NCBI GenBank assembly: GCA_029232285.1
Contig: JAOXFI010000005.1
Span: 1-64,000, forward strand
DNA: 64,000 bases
Source: Agmasoma carcini (nom. nud.)
Taxonomy: Eukaryota > Microsporidia > Thelohaniidae
Direction: 5' to 3'
Positions 405 to 31,286 of the stretch are shown in pieces (the stretch's first letter is position 1; each line of letters opens with the position of its first letter). A program made the translations under genes and the position numbers. The notes beneath the pieces are model-generated. The model worked only from the letters and a program-made list of their open reading frames with translations. It made no database searches and was not told the DNA's origin.

Positions 405-2129
405 ATGGAACTGTTAAAATTATTTCTTGTTATAAAGGGAGAGGAACTAGAGAAGGAGATATTTGATCAAATATTACAATTAAAGGAAAAAGATATTAAA
501 GAAACCGTAAAAATTTCACCCCCAATGAAATATAAAAAATATGCAGTCAACAGTGAATCAGGAATATGTTCAGATGTTGGTGTTAAAATACTTGAAAGAG
601 GAGGTAATGCTATGGATGCGGCAATTGCTTCTATTCTTTCAGTTGGGGTTGTAAATTCATTCTCCTCAGGCATAGGAGGTGGTGGATTTCTAATGTTAAA
701 AAGAAAAGATGTTTTTGAGATGTTTGATTTTAGAGAGACAGCACCAAGTATGATTGATCCAGAATATTTTAAGAATAATCCAAATGCTTCTAAATTTGGG
801 GCTATGTCAATATCAACACCGGGTGAGGTCATGGGATTATATCAAGCACATAAAGAACATGGCGTATTAGAGTGGAAGGATCTTTTTACTGATGTAATTG
901 AGTTAGCAGAAGGTTTCAAGGCTGAACAAATATTAATTAATAAGTTAAAAGCTCAAGAGCAATATATTTTTGCTGATGAAGGCTTAAGAAACACATACAC
1001 AAGAAATGGTAAGCTTATAAAAGTAGGTGATACAGTTGAAAGAAAGAATTTGGCTAAAACACTGAAAATAATAAGCAAAGACCCGATGTCATTTTACAAA
1101 GGTGAGTTAGCTGATAAAATAGTAGAAGCTGTAAAAAAGAGAGGTGGTGTTCTAAGTAAAGCTGACTTAGAGAATTATGAATCCAAAAAGAGATCAGTCG
1201 TAAGAGGATATTATAAAGATTTTACTGTATACACAACCAACCTTCCAACATCAGGGCCTTTGCTTATTCAAGCATTAAATATCATGAAAAGATTAAATAT
1301 TGAATCTCTTAATATCACAGATGAAAATATTTTTAACTTATATCACATGTTAATTGAAATATTTAAATTTATGTATTCTGAAAGAGGTCAGTTGGCTGAT
1401 CCTGATTTTCTTAATAATTGGAAGGAGGTTGTCAGTTATTTGATTATGGACAAGGCAGCTGAGAAAATATACAATAATCTTAATCTAACAAGAGCATTAG
1501 AGCGATCACATTTTGCTAAAGCACTACCCTTTGCAGAGGATCATGGAACATCACACTTAAATGCAATAGATGAAGAAGGGATGGTAGTTCAAATAACATC
1601 TTCAATTAATCTTGGGTTTGGATCAAAAATTTTAGATGATGAAACTGGTATTATTTTTAATAATAGTATTGATGATTTTTATATTCCTGGTATTGTAAAT
1701 GAATATGGTTTAAAGGCTATGTTTCCTAATATAATTGAAGGTAATAAACGACCTTTCTCATCAATGTGCCCTATGATATTGGAAAGGGATGGTGAGATGA
1801 TAGTTCTAGGAGCTGCTGGTGGAACACGAATACCAACATCTATCTTGGGGGTATTGGCCAATTTGTTTATTGGAAAAACTCTACATGAAAGTATAATGTC
1901 AACGAGAATACATGATCAGCTTTTACCTAATGTGACTTATGTAGAGGCAGACTTTCCACCATTTTTAAGGATGAAACTTGAAGAGTTAGGGCATAGTATA
2001 GAATTCTCTAAAGAAAATACTTTATTTACTTCAGTTCAAGGTATGCATATAAAATATGATGAAAACGGCGAGAGAAAAATTGAAGCTGTTTCAGACGAAA
2101 GGAAACATGGAAGATCATCAGGATTATAA
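405..2129 (+). CDS. Gamma-glutamyltransferase
   Basis: The 574-residue protein matches the gamma-glutamyltranspeptidase family along its length. Landmarks are the N-terminal ERGGNAMDAAIA block (about residues 64-75), SGIGGGGFLML (about 88-98), the autoprocessing site DHGTSH with nucleophile Thr382, the INLGFGSK block, IIFNNSIDDF, the gamma-glutamyl binding SSMCPMI, and GAAGGTRI. These enzymes self-cleave at the Thr, then hydrolyse or transfer the gamma-glutamyl group of glutathione. All catalytic elements appear intact. Animal GGTs are anchored by an N-terminal membrane helix. Here the N-terminus has only a short hydrophobic start followed by charged residues, so export is uncertain. ATG 405 is the first in-frame start. 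A role in scavenging host glutathione is inference. The gene is isolated, with a long gene-free stretch downstream. Confidence 0.93.
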   Translation: MELLKLFLVIKGEELEKEIFDQILQLKEKDIKETVKISPPMKYKKYAVNSESGICSDVGVKILERGGNAMDAAIASILSVGVVNSFSSGIGGGGFLMLKRKDVFEMFDFRETAPSMIDPEYFKNNPNASKFGAMSISTPGEVMGLYQAHKEHGVLEWKDLFTDVIELAEGFKAEQILINKLKAQEQYIFADEGLRNTYTRNGKLIKVGDTVERKNLAKTLKIISKDPMSFYKGELADKIVEAVKKRGGVLSKADLENYESKKRSVVRGYYKDFTVYTTNLPTSGPLLIQALNIMKRLNIESLNITDENIFNLYHMLIEIFKFMYSERGQLADPDFLNNWKEVVSYLIMDKAAEKIYNNLNLTRALERSHFAKALPFAEDHGTSHLNAIDEEGMVVQITSSINLGFGSKILDDETGIIFNNSIDDFYIPGIVNEYGLKAMFPNIIEGNKRPFSSMCPMILERDGEMIVLGAAGGTRIPTSILGVLANLFIGKTLHESIMSTRIHDQLLPNVTYVEADFPPFLRMKLEELGHSIEFSKENTLFTSVQGMHIKYDENGERKIEAVSDERKHGRSSGL

Positions 2130-5835: not shown

Positions 5836-6861
5836 TTACTTTTTACTGAAAAACGAAAACTTCCTCAATGTTTCACTTATTAATGATCCTTTATTAGGAT
5901 ATTTAATAAAATCATATGCTAAGTCATAAGTTATTGGTAGGAATGGTAAATTTCTGGTGGTATCTACTTTCGTATACAAATTATCTTCAATTAATTTCAT
6001 AAGTGCTTTCTTCAGAGAATCATTTTCAACACTGTTTAGCGTTTTAAGTGATTGTATCTCTGCATCATATTCAATAAAAAGGTTTGGTGTCTTAAAAGAA
6101 TCTATATCACAAGAGAAATCAGCATAATAACGTGAATGAACACCTTTAATAAACATATTTAGTTCTAAACTGGCCTTTAACAATTTTGATACATAAATCG
6201 ATTCGATAAAATTATTTTGTATGAAATCATTAAATGCCTTTAACTTACAAATAAAAGCTTCCGAAGATTCATATATAACGGTTATATCAGAAGTTTGTTT
6301 GATATTTTCTAACATTTGAGACTTTAGACAATCAATTTCATATGTAAACCGAGCTAATTGAGTGTTAAATCGATTATCATATCTTTGAAACTCACCTTTC
6401 TTATACTTTTGAAGCTGTTCCTCGCTTTCAAACGTAATTTCTATATCATTCCAGTATGAAATGATCTTAAAGGGTTGAAAATTAATCCTTTCGTTATTAA
6501 TTAGATAAATATCCTCTAAAAATGCCAAATCATTGGTAAAAGAATGTCTTAGGCTTGAAATCAATTCAGGATTGAAAATATCACTGTTATTTTCAAGCAT
6601 ACAAGTGATATAATTTTTATAGAGTACATAGTCTGATCCTGAGTTGTTCCTAAGTAGCCTTAGATTCTTTTTTAGATGTGATTTAGTGCCAATGTTCATA
6701 AATTTTGCAGTATTAGATTCAAGTTTATAAAATAGATGTAATGGATCATCATTTTCGGTATTTCTAATACACTTGTTACAAAAATTCTTATACTGCTTGA
6801 AATTCTTTGATAAATAACCATTTTTAATACGTAGTTCGTTTAAAGCTTCGAATATTTTCAT
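5836..6861 (-). CDS. SRP68: Signal recognition particle subunit SRP68
   Basis: The 341-residue protein starts with an RNA-binding-like stretch (LRIKNGYLSKNFKQYKNFC) that matches the SRP68 pattern of a short basic, aromatic segment ending in Tyr-x-x-Cys. It ends with LPFLPITYDLAYDFIKYP, the counterpart of the conserved C-terminal PIPCKPLFFDLA block of SRP68. The middle is helical. SRP68 binds SRP RNA as a heterodimer with SRP72 and helps target ribosomes making secretory proteins to the ER. Human SRP68 is about 620 residues, so this copy is roughly half size, as is common in microsporidia. ATG 6861 is preceded directly by AAAATTTTACC. The call rests on the two ends of the protein. Confidence 0.75.
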   Translation of the reverse strand: MKIFEALNELRIKNGYLSKNFKQYKNFCNKCIRNTENDDPLHLFYKLESNTAKFMNIGTKSHLKKNLRLLRNNSGSDYVLYKNYITCMLENNSDIFNPELISSLRHSFTNDLAFLEDIYLINNERINFQPFKIISYWNDIEITFESEEQLQKYKKGEFQRYDNRFNTQLARFTYEIDCLKSQMLENIKQTSDITVIYESSEAFICKLKAFNDFIQNNFIESIYVSKLLKASLELNMFIKGVHSRYYADFSCDIDSFKTPNLFIEYDAEIQSLKTLNSVENDSLKKALMKLIEDNLYTKVDTTRNLPFLPITYDLAYDFIKYPNKGSLISETLRKFSFFSKK

Positions 6862-13809: not shown

Positions 13810-15114
13810 ATGTCTATTTTATCAGGTAATTTATTGTTTAAGTTCACCCATCCATTAAATATTTATATCAAAATAAAACCAGAATGTAAAAATTTGTCAA
13901 AAATTTTTAAATCAAAAAAAGGATTCTTTTTAATAAATTGTAAAAATATTTCCGTTATCATGTTTTGCCAGCATATAAATATAATTTATAAGAGAAATTA
14001 TCTACTGCAGATAAATGAAGCATTTCTTAACTCAAATACAATTTATGAATGTGAGTATTGTGGCTCAAACCCACTCCAATATTTCTGTATGGATTGTGAT
14101 TATAGAGCATGTAGAAACTGTGCATTCAGCTGTGATCACAGAAAAGTACACAGCTCTTTTTATAGTCCATCTCTCAATACATTCACCTGTTTTATATGTG
14201 AGTATGAAGAAAAAATATCAATAGAAGAAATTGAAAAAATAGCACCTCCGACCAACCACTTTAATTTTATAAGATTAAAAGGGATTGAAGATCATGATGG
14301 ATCAACATTCTTATCATCAGTTATTCAAATAGTCTCAAAAATCGACAAAGTTAGAGATCATTATTTATCCTTTTCCCATCCCTTGGATGGGTGCAAAGAT
14401 CCATTGGAATGTGGTGATTGTTTTTTTAAAGCAATCTACAAAGAATTCTTTTTGGATGAATGCTTTAATATGTCTCAAATGATCTGTACAGCGTTTAAAT
14501 GTAACAAGAAATTATCTATATTCAATGGTCAAGCCCCATATAATGCATTTGATTTGATCTGCTCCTTATATCACAAAGATGTAGCTTTAGAGAAGTGCCA
14601 ATGTATAATGCACAAGACATTTTTTGGTAAACTGGAGATTAGAAGGGAGTGTCATCTTTGTAACTACGCGACTGTAAAGAGCGGTGTGAATTTTACAAGC
14701 TTTACCTTAGATTGCAAAGAATTATTAAGTGACAGCATTCAAAATTTCCTAAGTAATAAGCCAATAGAAATGTTTGAACACTGTGTAGGGTGTGGAAGGA
14801 CGTCTACACATGATAAAAGCAAAAATATCACGGAAAGTCCATATGTATTCACTCTAATTATTAATGATATCCAAGAAAATCATTCATATAAGAACAATAA
14901 ACACCTAGACGATACGATGATGATACAAAGTGCGAAGTATAAACTAGCTGGTTTTATTACAGCAAATAGTCCAAATGAAATTTCACCAAAGTATGAAGCC
15001 TTCATAGTATTAAATGATGTTTGGTATAAGTTTGATGAAGACGTGACGATTATAAACAACCCAAGGCCATATTACAAATCTACTTGCATGTGCTTTTACA
15101 TACGGATGGACTAA
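13810..15114 (+). CDS. UBP8: Ubp8/USP22-like SAGA deubiquitinase, apparently catalytically dead
   Basis: The 434-residue protein has a ZnF-UBP domain at about residues 81-130 (CEYC, YFCMDC, CRNC, HRKVH, CFIC) and then a USP fold. The order and wording follow yeast Ubp8: GI....GSTFLSS, CKDPLECGDCFFKAIYKEF, EKCQCIMHKTFFGKLE, RECHLCNY, and a final VWYKFDEDV with CFYIR. Ubp8/USP22 removes ubiquitin from histone H2B within SAGA. The catalytic Cys of the GSTCF motif is absent: GSTF places Thr166 there or deletes one residue. The catalytic His of GHYIAF is Lys394 (SPKYEAF). Zinc-binding pairs in the USP fingers are kept. It may persist as a structural or ubiquitin-binding SAGA part. The start at ATG 13810 is preferred over an upstream TTG at 13795. 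Confidence 0.85.
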   Translation: MSILSGNLLFKFTHPLNIYIKIKPECKNLSKIFKSKKGFFLINCKNISVIMFCQHINIIYKRNYLLQINEAFLNSNTIYECEYCGSNPLQYFCMDCDYRACRNCAFSCDHRKVHSSFYSPSLNTFTCFICEYEEKISIEEIEKIAPPTNHFNFIRLKGIEDHDGSTFLSSVIQIVSKIDKVRDHYLSFSHPLDGCKDPLECGDCFFKAIYKEFFLDECFNMSQMICTAFKCNKKLSIFNGQAPYNAFDLICSLYHKDVALEKCQCIMHKTFFGKLEIRRECHLCNYATVKSGVNFTSFTLDCKELLSDSIQNFLSNKPIEMFEHCVGCGRTSTHDKSKNITESPYVFTLIINDIQENHSYKNNKHLDDTMMIQSAKYKLAGFITANSPNEISPKYEAFIVLNDVWYKFDEDVTIINNPRPYYKSTCMCFYIRMD

Positions 15115-20240: not shown

Positions 20241-22037
20241 TTATATCAATGAGATTAACTCTTTAGCTATTCTATCCCCATACAATTCATTCAAGCCCAA
20301 ATCACCACACAATCTAAACAAACCTCTTGCCATTTCCTTGTCCCTAGATGATTTCACAACATCAAGAATTTTTGGAAATAATTTCTCAACTGGTGCACGA
20401 TAATCAGTTAAGTCATGATTCATATCAAATATAACCGTCTTAGATAGGTTTTCAACATTAGGATTGTTGTTAAAGACATATAGTTGATACAACGATCTTA
20501 GTTTTACATAGCCATCTGCTTTGTTCAGTATCTGTTGAATATTACTTGATTCAAACCTTTCATCTAAAATAATAGCTTCAATCAGAAGATCTTCAAGTAT
20601 TGAAACCCCAGAGTAATCATCAACAACACCGTATAGATGAATCTTACTTGAACTATCCCCAACTTCTTTTACTCTTTCCTTAACATTCTTTGTTAATTTG
20701 GTATCCAAAGAAAGACCAGCGTCACCTTCAGGAGTAGATAGAAGATCAAATAAGTCATATTTTATTATATATGGTGGTATAGCCTCGTAATATTCAGGTA
20801 TATTCTTAAATATTTCTATTAGCTTGATCTTATTGGTTTTTTTTTTGAGTTTTTCAACAATGGTAAACACAAAGTCAAAGAAAATGGAATCAATGGTGAT
20901 TCTCTTGCGCTCAGATGGTTCTGAATCCAAACTTTGAACTGAAGAGCTGTCATCGAATCGTAGATTATCAAATTCAAAGAAACTTGAATTATTCAAACAA
21001 ATTTCTTTTAGTAAATGGTACTTGACTAACAAATCCATATCAGATTTAAGAATTAGCTTGGATGCTTGCTTGAACTTTTTTGATAGAATTAAAGCCAAGA
21101 TTTTCACTCTGTCATCATTAAAGTTCTTCAGTTTGTCCTTTATTTCCCTTTTACATGTTATCTGAAGCCATAAATAGCTCTCAACCGTGTCTATAACGCT
21201 TCCATCTGATTTGACTCTCTCACAACACAACTCAAATAAGAATTTTTTAAATTTATCCTCCCCGGCCTCAATTCTAAAAGGAATGCTACTTTTTCTACCT
21301 TCTAGAAATTCAAGAAAAACCGTTTTAAATCGTGTGGACATGAATTCAAAGAACACTTCAAACTTATCAAGTAAATTTTTGATTAAATCCCTTCTGCCTA
21401 TTCTTAAAAGAACAAATATCTCAGCCCATAAGTATCTACCTTCATACACCTCAATATTATAATCCTCCCTACCGAATCTTAGCTTGACATAATCACATAC
21501 AAATAGCTCAAGATCACTATCCGTAATTTTAACATCTTGATTATTAACATTCATAAAATTCTTAATATATGAGATGTAAGTAGACTCTAGAAAGTGTAAA
21601 GGCGAGCTCTTTGTTTTGAGATGCTCATATAAATCGTAAAAGATTTTATCTCTAAACAAATCCCTATCAGGTACTTCTAAGAAATTTTCTTCAAAATATT
21701 CTACATTTTCTACTCTTGTTTTATAGAGATTCAGTTCTAATTCATCTTGAAGCTCTTTTATTTTCTTATCTAAAGCATGGTCTACAGATTTAAAGACATG
21801 TGTCCGCTCTTCATCCATTTTTTGCTTTAGTTTCTCATGAATCACACCCAAAGTCACTTGATCTACATCAAAACTTCTCCTTTTATTATTTATAAAGTTA
21901 GGGTAAGAGTTAACAATAGATTTATGATTGTACTCTTTGTATTTATTCTGCTTCTGCTTTAGAAGTGCCATTAGATGTGAAAGGTTGTTTATCCTTAACG
22001 GCTTTAATACAAATGGAGAGAACGAGTCTTGGACCAT
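20241..22037 (-). CDS. NIC96: Nucleoporin Nic96/NUP93-like
   Basis: The 598-residue protein is almost wholly helical. The best landmark is YLWAEIFVLLRIGRRDLIKNL (about residues 215-235), equivalent to the Trp-Ala-x-Ile-x-x-x-Leu-Arg-x-Gly motif that marks the helical solenoid of Nic96/NUP93. It is preceded by a charged helix and a VCDYVKLRF segment like the IDSYVKLKL of the yeast protein. Nic96 is a scaffold of the inner ring of the nuclear pore. Yeast Nic96 has 839 residues. Here the N-terminal region that recruits the Nsp1 complex looks shortened. The start is ATG 22037, since two codons upstream lies only a TTG. AAAAATTTGTC precedes the ATG. Confidence 0.7.
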   Translation of the reverse strand: MVQDSFSPFVLKPLRINNLSHLMALLKQKQNKYKEYNHKSIVNSYPNFINNKRRSFDVDQVTLGVIHEKLKQKMDEERTHVFKSVDHALDKKIKELQDELELNLYKTRVENVEYFEENFLEVPDRDLFRDKIFYDLYEHLKTKSSPLHFLESTYISYIKNFMNVNNQDVKITDSDLELFVCDYVKLRFGREDYNIEVYEGRYLWAEIFVLLRIGRRDLIKNLLDKFEVFFEFMSTRFKTVFLEFLEGRKSSIPFRIEAGEDKFKKFLFELCCERVKSDGSVIDTVESYLWLQITCKREIKDKLKNFNDDRVKILALILSKKFKQASKLILKSDMDLLVKYHLLKEICLNNSSFFEFDNLRFDDSSSVQSLDSEPSERKRITIDSIFFDFVFTIVEKLKKKTNKIKLIEIFKNIPEYYEAIPPYIIKYDLFDLLSTPEGDAGLSLDTKLTKNVKERVKEVGDSSSKIHLYGVVDDYSGVSILEDLLIEAIILDERFESSNIQQILNKADGYVKLRSLYQLYVFNNNPNVENLSKTVIFDMNHDLTDYRAPVEKLFPKILDVVKSSRDKEMARGLFRLCGDLGLNELYGDRIAKELISLI

Positions 22038-22746: not shown

Positions 22747-24261
22747 TCAACACTTATGGCGCTCTCTTGGAGGACATCTAACTATAGCATCACATTTAAG
22801 AATCATCTGTGCGGTCTCAGATGCAGCTGTAAACACACGCTTCTTCATCTCGTAACCTTCAATTATACCCCTCTCTCGCATACAACTTGTCTTTCCTGTA
22901 TCAACATTAAGTCCAAATGTTGATCTCTTGTACGAATGATCATTTCTCAAATTAGTTTTAAATTCATCCCCATCAAACCCACAATTTTCAGCAAGTATTT
23001 TAGGAATCTGTTGCAAGGCTCTAGAAAAAGCTTCAATTGCATCAGCATCTTTGGTTTTTGTTTCTGTGGCTAATCTAGACAATTCTGTGGCTAACATCAT
23101 CTCACTTGATCCCCCACCATAAAGACAAAAGCATGTATCTTTGATACGCTTAAGAACACATAAAGCATCATGAATAGAACGCTCAGCTTCATCTAATATT
23201 TCCTTTGATGATCCAAACAAGACAATTGTTGCTGCACCATTCTTGATTCCATCAAATTTAATCATCCTCTTATTTCCAACATTGATATTTGAGACACTTT
23301 CACATGTTCCAAAATCAGTTTCTTTTAAGTCATCAAAGGTTGATACCAATGAACCACCAAGTATTTTATTAAGACGCTCAACACCAACGAAGTCTGCATG
23401 TTCTATTGCTACAACATTCTTCTTACGGAATAACTGAGATGGATAATCATAGATCAACTGCCTATTTATAAATATATCAAACGGAATAGATGTTATATTA
23501 TCAACTTTCCTCTTCATTTTATCTTTTTCGGCTAGTTCAATATTTTCTAAGTCCATAATACTATTCACGTTTATTGATGAACTAAAAATTTTAACCTTAT
23601 CTGCATCCATTGATGTATTAGCTACTAATATTTTTGGGTTTTTCTTATCAACTATAATATCTCTATTCAAAATGAAGCCTTCAGAAACAAAACTCTGATG
23701 AAATTCACCTTCAAGTTTTATAATTTCAACTAATTCTATATCAGATGTCTTGTCCATAGCATCAACACATATTTTGGCAAAAAGATCAAGATTATTTGCT
23801 AAAACCTTTGAACTTAAGGTTGTTTTCACAAGATTTAACAATTCGTTTGTTTTTGGTACAAACTTCTTTTTATCCAAGACTTCAACTATCTTAGATGAAG
23901 CTTTCCTAAGGCCTTGAATGATCTTAACTGGCTTTATAGATAAATTATATGCTTCTTTCAAGATAAGGCTAGTTAATACAGCGATTGTTGTTGTACCATC
24001 ACCTTCAGCCTCATCCTGGCTTATTGAGCTATTGATGAGTATTTTGGCGCTTGCACTTTGAATATCCAAATTTTTCAGAATATGTGCACCATCGTTTGTA
24101 ACCTCTAAATTTCTGCCTTGAAGTATCTTAAGGGCGCCTTTTGGGCCAATGTGAGATCTTAATATCTCACCCACTATTTGTGTACCTTCTGATATAAGTT
24201 TTGTGGCTGTATCATTTTTATCTTCAGATGTTCCCTTGTTATGTGCTCCAAAGTAATCCAT
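22747..24261 (-). CDS. CCT2: Chaperonin CCT subunit beta
   Basis: The 504-residue group II chaperonin subunit carries GPKGALKIL, VTNDGAHILK and AEGDGTTT (ATP binding, with catalytic Asp). It also has the beta-specific run CFINRQLIYNYP-like (IFINRQLIYDYPSQLF), AIEHADFVGVERL and LDEAERSIHDALCVL. YGGGSSEMM comes near the C-terminus. Family length is about 530. CCT2 is one of eight subunits of the cytosolic TRiC/CCT ring that folds actin and tubulin. ATG 24261 is preceded by AAAAAATTTTCC. Confidence 0.96.
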   Translation of the reverse strand: MDYFGAHNKGTSEDKNDTATKLISEGTQIVGEILRSHIGPKGALKILQGRNLEVTNDGAHILKNLDIQSASAKILINSSISQDEAEGDGTTTIAVLTSLILKEAYNLSIKPVKIIQGLRKASSKIVEVLDKKKFVPKTNELLNLVKTTLSSKVLANNLDLFAKICVDAMDKTSDIELVEIIKLEGEFHQSFVSEGFILNRDIIVDKKNPKILVANTSMDADKVKIFSSSINVNSIMDLENIELAEKDKMKRKVDNITSIPFDIFINRQLIYDYPSQLFRKKNVVAIEHADFVGVERLNKILGGSLVSTFDDLKETDFGTCESVSNINVGNKRMIKFDGIKNGAATIVLFGSSKEILDEAERSIHDALCVLKRIKDTCFCLYGGGSSEMMLATELSRLATETKTKDADAIEAFSRALQQIPKILAENCGFDGDEFKTNLRNDHSYKRSTFGLNVDTGKTSCMRERGIIEGYEMKKRVFTAASETAQMILKCDAIVRCPPRERHKC

Positions 24262-30052: not shown

Positions 30053-30514
30053 TTAAGCTAAACAACCACGCGTTAATTCTGAAAGTTCTTCATATTTAAT
30101 CTGGCATACAAGATTAACGTCCCTATCCATAACAGTTACTCTTTTAGCATGATATGTACATCTTAGAGCATCTTCCAATAGACCAACAAGGAAGGTTTCG
30201 AGAGCTTCATGAAGCGCAAATATAGCACCCTTCTTAAACTTTACATTCGTATCCTGTGGGGTCACCTCTTTGATCATTCGACATAACGGTTTTCGACTAA
30301 CAAGAAGATTAGTAGACTTCTGATATTTTCTTACTTGTCTCATAGCAATAGTTCCAGGCTTATGTCTGTAGGTCTTCTTCTTTACTACTACATTTCCATC
30401 TTCATTTGATGCACTTTTCTTGGCGATACCAGTTGACTTACGCGCTGTTTTGGTAGCAACCTTCTTTGCAGGTTTCTTAGTTACCTTCTGCGAGTGTTGT
30501 TTAGTTCTTGCCAT
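30053..30514 (-). CDS. Histone H3, divergent
   Basis: The 153-residue protein starts with MARTKQ and has the H3 core words PGTIAMRQVRKYQKSTNLLV, a diverged helix 2 (ALHEALETFLVGLLEDALRCT) and HAKRVTVMDRDV. Canonical H3 has 136 residues. The extra length lies between tail and core (SASNEDGNVVVKKK) and at the C-terminus, which runs on after the usual QLARRIRGERA position. The K4 context (ARTKQ) is kept. The ARKS motif around K9 is replaced by SQKV. The K27-like ATKTARKS is kept. It is transcribed divergently from the H4 gene at 30972, with a CCCTCC element and TATA box upstream and CCCC right before the ATG. Confidence 0.95.
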   Translation of the reverse strand: MARTKQHSQKVTKKPAKKVATKTARKSTGIAKKSASNEDGNVVVKKKTYRHKPGTIAMRQVRKYQKSTNLLVSRKPLCRMIKEVTPQDTNVKFKKGAIFALHEALETFLVGLLEDALRCTYHAKRVTVMDRDVNLVCQIKYEELSELTRGCLA

Positions 30515-30971
30515 GGGGACATAAATTCACATTTTTTTATACTATTATTAGGAGGGAAAAAATATAGAAGAGTATGATTTAAGTTTAAAATATTTTAAAC
30601 ATCATTCTTATTTTATAAATTATATTTGATGACTGACCAACTTCTATTTTATTTTTTTTTCGTTTACTTTTTTTACAAATATATGAAAAAGGAAAGTAAA
30701 CGCTTATATCCTAAGTCAACATGTAATATGTTCTCTGATATGTTTCCACATATTTACCACTCCGTTTTCATTTAAAATACATTACTCTACCTAATTTCTG
30801 TGTATTAGAAGTCAAAGCAGTAAATCTAAAACAATCCCATAAGTCTACCAGTAAATATTTTTGTACTAAATCAATATATTTTCTTAAAAGATTGACAGAA
30901 ATGTTACAAAATTTTACTTCCCTCCTTTTTTACCAAAACAAAACTATAAAAAAAACATTTCTGTACCACCC
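30515..30971. promoter_or_regulatory. Divergent H3/H4 promoter with paired CCCTCC and TATA elements
   Basis: Going outward to each gene, both sides show CCCTCC, a TATA box and a C-run before ATG. For H3 (minus) CCCTCC is at 30556-30551 and TATAAAAAAA at 30541-30532. For H4 (plus) CCCTCC is at 30920-30925 and TATAAA at 30945-30950. The same arrangement lies before the second H4 gene at 52378. Function as a histone-specific promoter signal is inferred from this co-occurrence. Confidence 0.7.
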
Positions 30972-31286
30972 ATGTCTGGAAGAGGAAAAGCAGCCGGTGC
31001 AAAGGGAGGAGCAAAAGGATCAACAGCCAAGCGTTATCGTTCGAATATGTTAGTTAAAAGGTACGATATCACGCATGCTGCTGTTAGAAGAATGTGTAGA
31101 AGATCAGGTGGTACCCGTATGTCCAAGCTATGTGTTGATGTTATAAATGCAATTTCTGTAGGATGGTTAACAGAGGTTTTGAAGTTGGTAAGGACATATG
31201 CTGATCACTCAAGGAGAAAAACGATTACGGTATGGGATGTTGTTTGTGCCCTAAGAAGACTTGGTACATGCTACTGTGTTCTATAA
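30972..31286 (+). CDS. Histone H4, divergent paralog 1
   Basis: The 104-residue protein begins MSGRGK, as H4 does. It keeps the order of the H4 fold: ITHAAVRRMCRRSGGTRMS (against ITKPAIRRLARRGGVKRIS), a middle helix ending EVLKLVRTYADHSRRKTIT, and VWDVVCALRRLG (against AMDVVYALKRQG). The usual GRTLYGFGG end is GTCYCVL. The tail has lost the classic K12, K16 and RHRK20 context. H4 is normally one of the most conserved proteins, so this divergence is remarkable. It differs strongly from the H4-like gene at 52061. It shares a 457-bp divergent promoter with H3. Confidence 0.9.
   Translation: MSGRGKAAGAKGGAKGSTAKRYRSNMLVKRYDITHAAVRRMCRRSGGTRMSKLCVDVINAISVGWLTEVLKLVRTYADHSRRKTITVWDVVCALRRLGTCYCVL

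Follow-up and report, generated by a model that had tools for sequence, protein, structure and literature searches.

In the SAGA deubiquitinase Ubp8 (USP22, Nonstop), the zinc finger anchors the other module subunits and the USP body is turned towards the nucleosome; the QQD box found in USPs grips the ubiquitin tail. According to the part of the study of the yeast module that was available (PMC6172466), changing Cys146 of Ubp8 to Ser or Ala inactivates the enzyme, the Cys146Ala protein remains folded and shows tighter ubiquitin binding, Asn141 and His427 contact the end of ubiquitin, and eight zinc ions are listed for the crystal of the Ubp8 module. USP-family proteins with defective catalytic residues have also been described. 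USP39/Sad1 is treated as a pseudo-deubiquitinase, with doubts, in PMC10919355, which mentions neither Ubp8 nor USP22, and an excerpt of PMC2935449 describes S. pombe Ubp10 as lacking the Cys and Ubp13 as lacking both boxes. For microsporidia, the available text of PMC10989860 reports that GCN5 is conserved in 36 of them, cites Tra1 as absent and suggests that their GCN5 might work independently of SAGA; Tra1 was likewise not found in E. cuniculi (PMC2078597, in part). Only one microsporidian deubiquitinase, an OTU protein, is given as partly characterised in the accessible portion of PMC9552668. The word microsporidia is absent from a review of SAGA diversity (PMC8194025), and our search of the open-access literature found no paper combining microsporidia, SAGA and Ubp8.

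The window analyzed here, a 64,000-nt stretch of a contig from the microsporidian Agmasoma carcini (JAOXFI010000005.1), contains a gene that appears to encode a Ubp8-type protein without the catalytic residues (Table 1). The original prediction described an intact frame at 13810-15114 (+), and this frame is indeed open and uninterrupted over 434 codons (434 aa); the residues that it singled out, Thr166 and Lys394, are numbered from that start. A start at Met51 (position 13960), giving a protein of 384 aa, is more likely because the preceding 50 codons score as non-coding (-0.161 per codon vs 0.042 for the remainder) and because the C-x-H that begins the zinc finger of Ubp8-like proteins aligns at Met51, which opens the sequence MFCQHI. 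The extension at 13810..13959 is probably untranslated. The score of 0.042 for the 384-codon frame is weakly coding, and the other five frames of the same segment range from -0.101 to -0.007. Unless stated otherwise residues are numbered below from Met51, by which Thr166 becomes Thr116 and Lys394 becomes Lys344.

Table 1. Features of the Ubp8-type gene, in positions of the window and with residues numbered from Met51.
Feature	Position	Strand	Basis and remarks
Ubp8-type pseudo-deubiquitinase, likely CDS	13960..15114	+	384 aa + stop; open frame, Pfam UCH 3.9e-7, Komagataella Ubp8 9.1e-9, positive coding score
In-frame upstream extension from Met1 (start of the original prediction)	13810..13959	+	Coding score -0.161, codon-position-1 GC 0.14
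N-terminal zinc finger, Ubp8 layout: C3-x-H5, C31/C34, C43/C46, C51, H60, H64, C77/C80	13966..14199	+	MAFFT/A5 columns
Cys box, LKGIEDHDGSTFLSSVIQ	14275..14328	+	Aligns gap-free with Ubp8 Cys box
Asp111 at oxyanion Asn position	14290..14292	+	MAFFT alignment; counterpart of yeast Ubp8 Asn141
Thr116 (Thr166 from upstream start), catalytic Cys position	14305..14307	+	255/255 alignments
H140-C145-C151-C154, Ubp8-type zinc site inside USP domain	14377..14421	+	H140, C151, C154 invariant columns; C145 by eye
QDAHE box remnant, QAPYN	14530..14544	+	Asp to Ala192, His to Tyr194
H205 + C213-x-C215-x2-H218, Ubp8-type zinc site	14572..14613	+	C213, C215, H218 invariant columns; H205 by eye
USP finger cysteines C231/C234, C275/C278	14650..14793	+	Retained invariant columns
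Lys344 (Lys394 from upstream start), catalytic His position	14989..14991	+	C-terminal pairwise 6/8, A5, weak Ubp6 stretch; 11/255 subsets
Triad Asp retained, Asp359 (FDED)	15034..15036	+	A5; Asp in all rows in 127/255 subsets; P0008 has Asn

The gene product resembles Ubp8 more than any other protein of known structure. In a single-sequence search of the PDB, Komagataella Ubp8 (6tbm_Q, 9.1e-9) is the sole chain at E < 0.1, followed by Ubp6 at 0.12, and Pfam UCH matches residues 165-417 of the 434-aa frame with 30.4 bits (cut-off 23.9). Single-sequence searching of protein collections returned 1600 candidates, none of them at E <= 1e-3, and a search with residues 186-290 returned one candidate and none at E <= 10. 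Scans of viral contigs found no relative of the gene product, nor does NCBIfam match it. Using the gene product together with two yeast Ubp8 fragments as the query yielded 10 protein matches, two of which (P0010 and P0011) are short USP pieces that were excluded from every alignment. The other eight, P0002-P0009, comprise seven fungal proteins and P0009 and serve as the reference set. The seven fungal matches are titled hypothetical protein or ubiquitin hydrolase at source and are called Ubp8-like here by similarity, and the yeast Ubp8 sequence was read from a PDB profile search dominated by the Komagataella fragment. When the eight proteins are combined into a profile, two active-type USPs of the same genome (L002, 80.7 bits; L003, 51.7 bits) score above the gene product (47.7 bits), and the zinc finger of the gene product receives 1.9 bits. 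Such a profile favours proteins with the catalytic boxes, which the gene has lost, and we therefore give these scores less weight than the cysteine pattern. Two AlphaFold models (pLDDT 45.8 and 33.9) are too poor for use or for a fold search. From sequence comparison, it is well supported that the gene encodes a Ubp8/USP22-type protein that would have turned pseudoenzyme.

The cysteine and histidine skeleton of Ubp8 is largely preserved. Columns were considered invariant where at least seven of the eight reference proteins have a letter and these letters all agree. By this definition the eight Ubp8-like proteins share 18 invariant cysteines, of which the gene product retains 16. Those missing are the catalytic Cys and the counterpart of C352 of P0002; we take the latter not to be part of a zinc site. 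Among the other invariant residues 15/58 are retained in the L-INS-i alignment, and 15/57, 17/59 and 15/58 in the remaining three MAFFT modes. Comparing the 16/16 cysteines that are presumably zinc ligands with 15/58 of the other residues gives a Fisher p of 4.5e-8, which overstates the contrast because cysteines are in general well conserved. Four of the nine invariant histidines are retained in the MAFFT alignments; a fifth, H64, falls on its invariant column in A5 only (an alignment with four of the eight proteins), and the MAFFT modes place Ser66 there. Taken alone A5 retains 14/17 cysteines, a lower count because it misaligns the start and the neighbours of two finger columns. The order of Ubp8 noted in the original prediction is kept, and the finger cysteines stand on invariant columns. 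The zf-UBP domain named there is present as a Cys/His layout but not as a Pfam zf-UBP match to the gene product, and zf-B_box matches below its own cut-off.

To our knowledge, Sad1 and USP39 lack the C-x-C-x2-H motif, the H-C-C site and the finger cysteines of Ubp8. The retention of all three here speaks against a splicing pseudo-deubiquitinase of the Sad1/USP39 type serving the tri-snRNP, as does the single-sequence search, which finds Ubp8 and has no Sad1 or USP39 chain among the 4 PDB matches of the gene product at E <= 1. Such a protein would match in its layout and in the absence of Cys and His (as described in part of PMC10919355), but on balance we consider this identity improbable.

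The catalytic Cys has been replaced. Thr lies ungapped on the Cys of Komagataella Ubp8 in the phmmer alignment, and it occupies the same position in four MAFFT modes and in all 255 alignments that combine the gene product with the possible subsets of the eight reference proteins. These alignments confirm the predicted Thr166; the alternative offered with it, a deletion of the Cys, is contradicted by the lack of a gap in the phmmer and MAFFT alignments. The catalytic His is also gone, and the predicted Lys394 stands at its position where the C-terminal region aligns, a placement less certain than that of the Thr. Eight pairwise alignments of the C-terminus only place Lys on the catalytic His in six cases and Asn in two, with the score for P0002 being matched by 13 of 500 shuffles of the C-terminus of the gene product. 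Lys is also found on the catalytic His in A5 and in a weak stretch of similarity to Ubp6 (9.9 bits, i-Evalue 2.9), where SPKY is aligned with SGHY. The full-length subset alignments place it there in 11/255 cases, the four MAFFT modes have a gap at the position and place no Lys there, and another alignment, A3, misplaced the C-terminus. The loss of the His is nevertheless settled because it can be read without any alignment: the last 69 of the 384 residues, those past residue 315, contain no His. Similarly, there is no Cys between residues 80 and 145.

The losses extend beyond the two residues originally noted. The oxyanion Asn has become Asp111, QDAHEF reads QAPYNAF and LKRFEH reads INDIQE. 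An active enzyme using Thr or another residue as its nucleophile would be consistent with the retained triad Asp, and activity without the usual residues is claimed for USP39 in the part of PMC10919355 at hand. However, the oxyanion Asn, the QQD box and the catalytic His have all been lost together, which makes activity very improbable. We also considered and rejected a single frameshift masking the motifs: around both boxes, the other two forward frames run into stops, and the motifs appear in neither of them. With these frames lacking the motifs and the losses at several separate places within an open frame, an error of assembly or base calling is hardly credible as their source.

The original prediction took the intact frame as a sign that selection keeps a non-catalytic role in binding ubiquitin or SAGA. 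Among 2000 shuffles of the core the mean number of in-frame stops is 30.5 and the minimum 14, while the actual gene has none, although a single change would turn any of 143 of its 384 codons into a stop. The codon score of 0.042 is the third lowest of 20 frames in the window, the other 19 ranging from 0.04 to 0.302. These comparison frames, on which the codon score was also trained, are at least 150 aa long; the gene itself and one frame that runs antisense to another gene were left out of them. A role kept without catalysis is therefore favoured by the 16/16 putative zinc-ligand cysteines and the 384 open codons, and disfavoured by the codon score. The weak score, the loss of 43/58 other invariant residues and the failure to find the partners Sgf11, Sus1 and Sgf73 are what would be expected of a dying gene, one whose function is unneeded, whose active site is lost and whose frame is open because the loss is recent. 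We regard such decay as unlikely, if still deserving consideration, given that every putative zinc-ligand cysteine is retained, that no stop interrupts 384 codons vs 30.5 in the shuffles, and that losing several separate active-site boxes takes time. Retention of a non-catalytic role is plausible from the sequence, and we infer selection for it rather than observe it because no close relative was found. As to the two roles originally proposed, the additional loss of the QQD box casts doubt on ubiquitin binding, and SAGA binding has no partner support.

The partners were sought in the 4.26 Mb assembly of 69 contigs. Models for Sgf11, EnY2/Sus1 and SCA7/Sgf73 (PF08209, PF10163, PF08313) have no match in this genome, a weak negative because none of the three had a positive control over the cut-off: in 14 control genomes, the named ones being bacteria and archaea, the models matched 5, 0 and 1, none over the cut-off. 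The genome encodes a Gcn5-like protein (L022) that combines a bromodomain with an acetyltransferase domain. Another locus (L024, G000:C10), a long frame carrying a bromodomain towards its end, looks TAF2-like by eye. No second copy of the Ubp8-type gene was found, the genome search giving the gene itself as its one candidate. There are at least six other USP genes, five identified by Pfam UCH and one (L007) through zf-UBP, counts that are lower bounds because the Pfam UCH search missed L007. All six retain the catalytic Cys and His. Two of them (L004 and L005) have hydrophobic stretches near the N-terminus by eye and are possibly membrane-anchored or secreted. Microsporidian SSU rRNA was also looked for in this assembly and did not turn up among 64 candidates, 5 of which were scored.

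The original prediction also raised the question of whether Rad6, Bre1 and Lys123 of H2B are missing. An H2B-like histone (L013) is encoded, with four PDB matches that are all H2B (best 6.2e-4). A count by eye, in the region that the HMMER alignment no longer covers, puts a Lys 16 residues past the G of GDL, which is the spacing of K123 in what we take to be the yeast H2B sequence. Six E2 loci were found, two of which (L020 and L016) were compared with the PDB. L020 is possibly Rad6-like judging from its best match, UBE2B/Rad6 at 6.2e-25, with the Ubc9-type SCE1 close behind at 1.3e-24. For Bre1 the model PF08647 has no match in the genome, and none of the 14 loci with a RING pattern inspected among 18 RING matches is Bre1-like by eye. 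An H2B-like histone with this Lys and possibly a Rad6-like E2 are present, and Bre1 was not found by either route.

Core histones are divergent in this genome. Ten histone-fold matches were obtained, and the eight loci that were read include three that are H3-like and one each that is H4-, H2A- and H2B-like by eye. The divergent core histones are at 30053-30514 (-) and about 30888-31283 (+) in the window and at L008, L010, L013 and L014; the H4-like histone of the window appears unusually altered by eye. Elsewhere in the window, the frame at 405-2129 (+) is gamma-glutamyltransferase-like by eye and possibly of bacterial origin, and an AAATTT-like element was noticed by eye shortly before the start codons of several window genes, at 5836-6861, 20241-22037 and 22747-24261 (all -).

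Taken together, we think it probable that the gene encodes a Ubp8/USP22-type pseudoenzyme kept for its folded body. The protein would fold on the same zinc skeleton as Ubp8 and would be unable to cleave ubiquitin; the folded body may be needed, and the protein may be retained as a structural or adaptor subunit. Such a subunit seems to us more likely than a ubiquitin reader because the oxyanion Asn, the His and the QQD box are all lost. If this organism removes ubiquitin from H2B at all, one of the six other USPs would do so. More tentatively, and with rather low confidence, the SAGA deubiquitinating module or its remnant could have become an adaptor on chromatin whose role is purely structural and whose basis is a dead Ubp8, with H2B served by another USP. 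If so, this lineage would carry a naturally occurring Ubp8 pseudoenzyme, perhaps the first to be observed, and would offer a natural test of what the module does beyond catalysis. No natural catalytically dead Ubp8 is reported among the open-access literature matches listed. Pseudo-deubiquitinases of the USP family are already known; one from the Ubp8 branch would be what is new here, and it is more than chance. A lineage that keeps the body of Ubp8 minus its active site would supply evidence from nature that the protein does more than cleave, and 'Ubp8' in a genome annotation need not mean deubiquitinase activity.

Compared with Ubp8, USP22 and Nonstop, the gene product has the same domain order, the C-x-H start of the zinc finger, most of the invariant cysteines (16/18) and the C-x-C-I-x-H motif. 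It differs in being shorter, in lacking the catalytic Cys and His, the oxyanion Asn and the QQD box, and in that Sgf11, Sus1 and Sgf73 were not found beside it in the genome. The Ubp14/USP5-like protein of the same genome, L007, also combines a zinc finger with a USP domain. Unlike the gene product, L007 has a canonical zf-UBP (3.7e-11), has USP5 as its closest match (2.5e-7, from the zinc finger alone) and keeps both NICY and SGHY. The splicing pseudo-deubiquitinase Sad1/USP39 is similar in having a zinc finger and a USP domain without the catalytic Cys and His (PMC10919355, in part). However, the protein described here matches Ubp8 in sequence and retains the Ubp8 cysteine pattern.
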